From assembly GCA_014860575.1 (NCBI GenBank), contig JACZJK010000052.1, positions 1 through 64,000 on the forward strand: a DNA stretch of 64,000 nt. Reading direction: 5' to 3'. This stretch comes from Bacteroidales bacterium. Lineage in GTDB: Bacteria; Bacteroidota; Bacteroidia; Bacteroidales; JAAYJT01. Under the pieces are notes generated by a model, which did no database searches, was not told the origin of the DNA, and worked only from the letters and a program-made list of their open reading frames with translations. Made by a program: the position numbers and the translations under genes. The stretch's first letter is position 1. Every line of letters begins with the position of its first letter. Below, in pieces: positions 58,477-58,626 of the stretch.

Positions 58477-58552
58477 TGGAGCGGAAAACGGGATTCGAAC
58501 CCGCGACCCTCAGCTTGGGAAGCTGATGCTCTACCAACTGAGCTACTTCCGC
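58477..58552 (-). tRNA. tRNA-Gly (anticodon CCC)
   Basis: The minus strand reads GCGGAAGTAGCTCAGTTGG and folds into a full cloverleaf. The acceptor is GCGGAAG with TTTCCGC, the anticodon stem TCAGC/GCTGA with loop TTCCCAA, and GGTTCGAATC is the T loop. Discriminator U73 and CCA are encoded. The CCC anticodon reads GGG glycine codons. No terminator was seen, and the gene is not part of a cluster. Confidence 0.93.
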
Positions 58553-58588
58553 AAATGTTATGTTGTTATTAATTCCCCCAGCCTGGAA

Positions 58589-58602
58589 TCCGCCGCGGCG
58601 GA
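58589..58602. repeat. Perfect palindrome TCCGCCGCGGCGGA abutting the tRNA fragment
   Basis: A 14-base perfect palindrome. Degraded relatives are TCCGCCGTGGTGGA at 18243 in dnaE and TCCGACCTGGTGGA at 7493. The tRNA fragment begins at the next base. Confidence 0.65.
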
Positions 58603-58626
58603 CTACCAACTGAGCTACTTCCGCAA
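58603..58626 (-). pseudogene. Truncated copy of the tRNA-Gly 5' end
   Basis: These 24 bases are identical to 58531-58554, the first 22 bases of tRNA-Gly plus two upstream bases, in the same orientation. The copy includes the acceptor 5' strand and most of the D arm, and stops at the palindrome. It cannot fold as a tRNA. It may be a relic of a duplicated tRNA or of an integration event. Confidence 0.8.

Follow-up and report, generated by a model that had tools for sequence, protein, structure and literature searches.

What produced the incomplete tRNA-Gly copy that lies against a GC-rich palindrome, beside an intact tRNA-Gly gene, in this Bacteroidales genome? The window analysed here, that is, the whole stretch of 64,000 nucleotides, holds a single detectable tRNA according to both ARAGORN and Rfam, a tRNA-Gly with anticodon CCC on the minus strand (58477–58552; RF00005, 72 bits). 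The first 22 bases of this gene recur unchanged and in the same orientation 72 bases away (58603–58624, minus strand), directly abutted by the 14-base palindrome TCCGCCGCGGCGGA (58589–58602), as the original prediction had it. The further claim that the copy ends at the palindrome did not survive an ungapped comparison of copy and gene. Past the palindrome the tRNA sequence resumes in decayed form (58575–58588, minus strand), TTCCAGGCTGGGGG in the copy agreeing with TCCCAAGCTGAGGG in the gene at 11 of 14 bases, a level of agreement that 0 of 20,000 segments of 14 bases drawn at random from the window reached, and a spacer (58553–58574, minus strand) then leads to the intact gene. Read on the tRNA strand, the gene has GGTAG-AGCATCAGCT-TCCCAAGCTGAGGG and the copy GGTAG-TCCGCCGCGGCGGA-TTCCAGGCTGGGGG; the part swapped out, AGCATCAGCT (58521–58530 in the intact gene, minus strand), comprises ten bases (AGC-ATCA-GCT). 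Because the tRNA match resumes, the copy is longer than 22 bases and swapped internally, and truncation by the palindrome was rejected. As judged from the sequence, the palindrome substitutes 14 bases for a ten-base mini-hairpin inside a longer, decayed tRNA-Gly copy.

Palindromes of this length are not rare as such in the window, where two of 14 and two of 16 bases are present. In predicted single-stranded-DNA stability, the window copy is no better than shuffles (z 0.10) and the gene stretch is better (z -2.71). The gene neighbouring the locus had no match in the two same-genus genomes searched, an absence that carries no weight by itself.

The palindrome in this genome and across Bacteroidota

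The palindrome had been called dispersed, which is true of the genome and not of the window: the 4.4 Mb genome has 14 copies of TCCGCCGCGGCGGA and none of the pattern read backwards, and the 64 kb of the window contain one copy. Three of the 14 sit in partial tRNA copies that each adjoin an intact gene, namely the tRNA-Gly copy described above, a tRNA-Val copy on contig C37 that has lost AGCGCTTGCT, and a tRNA-Met copy on contig C42 that has lost ACCCAAAGGT and shows a second swap, read by eye, of the D arm for TTCGCCGCGGCGAA. The other 11 are located outside RNA copies, within dispersed repeats of two kinds. In the kind written GTCATTCTGA-ACGAAGT-GAAGAATCT and similar, the tip is the part that is replaced, and in 9 of 56 such repeats the palindrome stands there, either exact or with point mutations; the mutated copies speak for an old and real sequence. 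Inspection by eye found no constant tag, such as REP elements have, in the flanks of the 14 palindromes. A general CCGCC...GGCGG hairpin family was also considered for this genome and rejected, with 42 sites compared to 24 for the reversed pattern and the exact palindrome core making up 15 of the 42. As a separate observation, dispersed repeats of the form GTCATYCTGA...GAAGRATCT occur in pairs that face each other about 16–20 bases apart (for example C1:18222-18297 and C16:175818-175888), with 56 single repeats in the genome.

In a set of 60 genomes drawn from relatives, the genome studied here included, two carry the palindrome: this one, with its 14 copies, and a member of another family of the same order, with 10, mostly in the tip of a different repeat. 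The two genomes of the same genus had none. Across 395 genomes of the phylum the palindrome was detected in 41, with at most 14 copies each, and the reversed-pattern control, counted from the listing, matched in six genomes once each. We inspected 43 of these sites from 19 phylum genomes, which include partial tRNA copies as well as many sites in repeats or other stretches. At one locus (L098), a partial 5S rRNA copy, identified by eye, adjoins an intact 5S gene and carries two swapped hairpins (TCCGCCGCGGCGGA and TCCGCCGAGGCGGA).

A small GIY-YIG gene beside structural-RNA genes

In some arrays of partial copies, a small open frame between the copies encodes a single-domain protein of about 80–90 aa. 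Three of these array proteins match the Pfam family PF01541 (GIY-YIG) with 50–64 bits against a cut-off of 22.6 (E 4e-13 to 2e-17), from which the small proteins are predicted to be nucleases. The nuclease profile matches the UPF0213 structures 1zg2 and 1ywl and, more weakly, SLX1, a likeness that gives the fold family only and bears on neither RNA genes nor palindromes. NCBIfam returned no family for the three proteins, and PHROGs one weak, unnamed match for one of them.

The profile matched in 37 of 61 phylum genomes. Gene neighbourhoods were examined in a sample of 70 nuclease loci, made up of the best locus of 30 genomes and 40 places ranking high among the matches listed, those in or beside stretches already sampled being passed over; several of the loci share a genome. 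A tRNA or tmRNA on the same strand lies at the stop codon or no more than 900 bases upstream in 55 of the 70, and no locus has an antisense tRNA or tmRNA as its only such neighbour. ARAGORN found neither at 15 loci, including L248, where an RNase P RNA gene directly follows the stop codon of the small GIY-YIG gene (Rfam). A palindrome is present within 60 bases past the stop of 40 of 90 nuclease genes (33 of the 70 loci), as opposed to 126 of 1035 control windows. The nuclease was found in 36 of the 41 palindrome-bearing genomes, leaving 5 of the 41 with no match, and in 35 of 59 without the palindrome, the latter being the 61-genome draw minus two palindrome carriers (Fisher p 0.003, with kinship ignored).

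The placement of these genes relative to the RNA gene takes several forms. Small GIY-YIG genes lie directly 3' of tmRNA at L247 and, in the genome studied here, at L225 (C31:75414-75647, minus strand; both by Rfam). Several nuclease genes end in a TAG that resembles the tRNA's own sequence; at L240, L243, L249 and L308 this stop lies inside the following intact tRNA (Arg, Pro, Pro and Val, respectively), and the coding sequence overlaps the tRNA 5' end by about 20 bases. Two tandem arrays stand out, one of eight small GIY-YIG genes about 365 bases apart (G112:C34:6988-9769) and one of five exactly 450 bases apart (G295:C1:120132-122171).

The genome of the window has six Pfam GIY-YIG matches, two in long frames and four small. 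On C42, a small GIY-YIG gene with one internal stop lies beside the tRNA-Met unit and is followed by a decayed palindrome (by eye); on C61, a small gene with a Pfam match lies between partial tRNA copies, together with TCCCGACTTCACGTCGGGA. A further small gene (L223; C36:2227-2466, minus strand) is located inside an integrase-like gene whose reading continues in frame past the nuclease stop codon, and at its junctions lie ACCCCGTTGGAT and ATCCTACGGGGT, which form an inverted repeat of 12 bases with 11 of 12 matching (both by eye). On the window's own contig (C52) no gene matches PF01541, and the window unit is gene-free.

tRNA-Met swaps in named genomes

A scan of named genomes for the palindrome behind TCATA, which is part of the tRNA-Met anticodon region, yielded at least 118 stretches with at least 174 sites, mostly from Bacteroidota and including many isolates. 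Since TCATA was part of the query, the left boundary of the swap in these stretches is set by the search; the right boundary is free of it, and two tRNA-Met loci found through the nuclease (L229 and L260) agree. Seven of the 118 listed stretches (L108, L122, L161, L164, L168, L199 and L219) carry titles that point beyond Bacteroidota, lack a tRNA-Met in range and resemble chance matches; the count of 174 includes them.

Of the checks that came with the original prediction, the search for an intact tRNA near such a fragment succeeded among the matches listed, in which 117 of the 174 sites have a tRNA with a CAT anticodon on the same strand within 1500 bases. The partial copy lies upstream of the tRNA in 41 of these 117 listed sites and downstream in 76. 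The lost segment is ACCC(GAA/TGA/AAA)GGT in all 90 listed sites where it was resolved (ACCCGAAGGT in 41, ACCCTGAGGT in 31 and ACCCAAAGGT in 18), and 27 of the 117 listed sites are without a resolved swap. Some of the listed stretches have two to four partial copies in a row.

A GIY-YIG gene is present in 57 of the 118 stretches among the matches listed. In 48 of the 174 listed sites a nuclease stop codon precedes the palindrome by at most 100 bases, and in 43 of the 48 the spacing is 13–23 bases; these 48 comprise 36 of the downstream type and 12 for which no tRNA was recognised in range. Among the matches listed, 41 copies are of the upstream type, the kind seen in the window, and none of them directly follows a nuclease gene. 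Terminators were compared in three stretches. In L112 the unit's terminator follows the intact tRNA and a different one follows the last leftover copy, an arrangement to be expected had the unit made the tRNA complete again and pushed the native 3' half away. In L142 and L184 the terminator of the leftover copy resembles that of the intact gene, and plain duplication would have the same outcome.

Hairpins exchanged for hairpins

For 73 nuclease genes that had a tRNA in range, this range being looser than in the 70-locus sample, the leftover copy was compared with the adjoining tRNA, which resolved the swap for 22 and gave none for 51. A script attributed the 20 combinations of lost segment and new palindrome to tRNAs for Ala, Asn, Asp, Cys, Gly, Met, Phe, Pro and Val, and the lost segments include whole anticodon arms (for example CTTGAATGGCATTCAAG) and T-loop pieces (for example CGAGTTCG). 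Pairing ends of at least two bases were found in 19 of 20 lost segments, compared with 1.3 expected from random tRNA segments of the same lengths, the 20 not being all independent because several are variants of one tRNA site. This set consists of 15 of the 16 distinct segments from the nuclease comparison and five from the genome of the window and named loci; with the omitted segment, which has three bases and no pairing ends, the count would be 19 of 21. In three segments the lost and the new hairpin share an outer pair, which was possibly counted once too often; with this shared pair removed by hand, 19 of 20 segments still have two pairs. The new palindromes are mostly of two kinds, TCCGCC...GGCGGA and TCCCGA...TCGGGA. 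As lost segments and new palindromes are both hairpin-like, the event reads as the exchange of one stem-loop for another of unrelated sequence.

We built a tree of 97 nuclease proteins in which each locus is represented once. On this tree the neighbouring RNA changes type 28 times, against 53.5 in shuffles (none of 300 as low), and nuclease lineages therefore keep to their own RNA gene. The kind of palindrome changes 3 times against 7.9 (none of 300 as low); when the tRNA-Met rows are left out, it changes 3 times against 3.8, with 53 of 300 shuffles as low, and does not follow the tree.

Origin of the window unit

We consider it probable that the window contains a gene-free, decayed unit, of the upstream or 5' type, of selfish elements that reside in structural-RNA genes of Bacteroidota and whose full form includes a GIY-YIG nuclease. 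The sequences show a precise replacement, intact genes paired with partial copies, tandem arrays, an adjacent nuclease gene and nuclease lineages faithful to their type of RNA gene. A full element would consist of a small, single-domain GIY-YIG nuclease gene in or beside an RNA gene (tRNA, tmRNA or RNase P RNA), arranged so that one RNA gene stays complete and a partial copy is left over, in which a stem-loop of the RNA gene is replaced by a GC-rich hairpin, here TCCGCCGCGGCGGA. The nuclease, for which the neighbouring RNA gene would be the target, may cut that gene, and repair may then insert or amplify the unit in the way described for SegB of phages; the swapped hairpin could serve to remove the nuclease target from the leftover copy. 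The new hairpin might, as a guess, be written by hairpin-specific exchange or by template switching on single-stranded DNA. The tight spacing between stop codon and palindrome, like the RNA-gene fidelity, links the swapped tRNA copies to the nuclease unit, and the window unit would derive from the same system despite the lack of a nuclease gene on its contig. If this system made the window unit, the unit has either lost its gene or been acted on by an enzyme encoded elsewhere.

Several observations count against this explanation. They are the nuclease-free contig of the window, the upstream-type copies without a nuclease among the matches listed (0 of 41) and the predominance of dispersed repeats among the palindrome sites of this genome (11 of 14), together with the 51 of 73 nuclease genes without a resolved swap, the 15 of 70 loci at which ARAGORN detected no tRNA or tmRNA and the 5 of 41 palindrome-bearing genomes with no nuclease match. 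The palindrome kind, which departs from the nuclease tree without the tRNA-Met rows, and the like terminators of L142 and L184 also weigh against it, and an empty site was not seen. The main rival accommodates part of this by separating two processes: short tandem duplications would give rise to neutral, incomplete copies of tRNA genes, and a mobile palindrome of the REP kind would be written into small hairpins free of selection, the GIY-YIG nuclease possibly being the mobiliser of the palindrome as RAYT is for REPs, or as the Ssn nuclease of Neisseria is reportedly tied to its repeat. The gene-free dispersed repeats that hold those 11 palindromes, the 9 of 56 repeats of one hairpin type with the palindrome or a mutated form in the tip and the nuclease-free upstream copies among the matches listed (again 0 of 41) speak for this reading, and the tight spacing of 13–23 bases in 43 of the 48 listed cases and the faithfulness of nuclease lineages to an RNA-gene type speak against it. 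We regard it as rather unlikely in this form. It is also not exclusive of the selfish-element explanation, and both could hold.

Selection for the rewritten copies would be a very improbable cause. It would keep them, for instance, as tRNA-like decoys against phage or plasmid nucleases that cut the anticodon or variable loop; the frequent swapping of the anticodon arm, or of the anticodon or variable-loop region, and the maintenance of arrays fit such a role, which is hard to reconcile with copies that lack one tRNA end and with swaps in non-tRNA repeats that decay freely. Lower still is the probability that we attach to an attachment-site remnant of a tyrosine-recombinase element at tRNA-Gly. 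Although tRNA genes are common attachment sites, the window copy is the 5' part of the gene and ends inside it, where such a site would have the 3' end duplicated, and the array units examined span a few hundred bases, with space for one small gene only; an integrase site was rejected. An assembly or library artefact, which 66 contigs and an exactly recurring 14-mer might suggest, has a negligible probability: the palindrome occurs in many named isolate genomes (for example Flavobacterium, Algoriphagus, Belliella and Kaistella), on which this explanation was rejected, one genome has its copies on a 4.2-Mb contig, and point-mutated copies exist. The original prediction was right in linking palindrome and duplicated tRNA, which belong to one recurrent, mobile-looking phenomenon distinct from the usual integrase pattern; the cutting-off of the copy gives way to the replacement of an internal mini-hairpin. 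Its observation is thus partly confirmed and its interpretation partly supported.

A more far-reaching reading, possible but tentative, is that a process in Bacteroidota precisely swaps small stem-loops, in tRNA arms and in the tips of dispersed repeats, for a specific GC-rich palindrome of as few as 14 bases, which would then behave as a minimal mobile sequence; small GIY-YIG nucleases parasitising tRNA, tmRNA and other RNA genes would spread it in trans. If the selfish-element explanation is true, these common and little-studied small GIY-YIG genes parasitise RNA genes across the phylum and leave a recognisable scar. This would account for many of the partial tRNA genes next to real ones and for part of the GC-rich palindromes in these genomes. 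It would also supply numerous naturally occurring targets, each with an altered counterpart, for the study of GIY-YIG specificity, and raise the testable question of how a stem-loop is precisely replaced by one that shares no sequence with it.

Comparison with known systems

REP elements are short dispersed palindromes that can depend on RAYT transposases and carry a constant tag such as GTAG. The Bacteroidota palindrome is likewise short, dispersed and possibly dependent on a nuclease gene, but it is smaller, at 14 bases, has no constant flanking tag in its 14 sites, is associated with another enzyme family and replaces sequence where REPs add to it. Ssn of Neisseria is reportedly a small, single-strand-specific GIY-YIG nuclease tied to a short multi-copy repeat. 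It is not known to involve insertion into RNA genes or replacement of one hairpin by another, and the work on it could narrow the novelty of the present system. No description of the palindrome, or of a hairpin swap linking GIY-YIG genes and partial tRNAs in Bacteroidota, was found in the open-licence papers searched, in which searches combining GIY-YIG and tRNA with Bacteroidetes or Flavobacterium led to fungal mitochondria and similar topics instead. Of the titles listed for the palindrome string, none dealt with bacterial repeats. Excerpts of a 2006 survey of the GIY-YIG superfamily (PMC1564403) contain none of the terms Bacteroides, UPF0213, COG2827 or palindrom-.

The closest described system, going by excerpted accounts of it (PMC13096335, PMC2988022), is SegB, a free-standing GIY-YIG homing endonuclease of T-even phages that is encoded beside tRNA genes, and is reported to cut within them at the motif RAWTSGAAC and to drive tandem amplification of tRNA and its own gene, relying on a short stretch of homology that the tRNA 5' end shares with the 3' end of segB. 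The nuclease-bearing units of Bacteroidota share with SegB kinds a GIY-YIG domain, a position in or beside an RNA gene and lineage fidelity; as in those accounts of SegB, the genes adjoin tRNA genes and form tandem arrays, and several end within tRNA sequence. Unlike the phage enzyme so described, the Bacteroidota enzymes are chromosomal and about 80–90 aa long, their partial RNA copies have a hairpin swapped for a GC-rich palindrome, and gene-free units exist, such as that of the window, which lacks a nuclease gene (no PF01541 match on C52). We think that the chromosomal enzymes may act like SegB, by cutting tRNA genes and promoting amplification.
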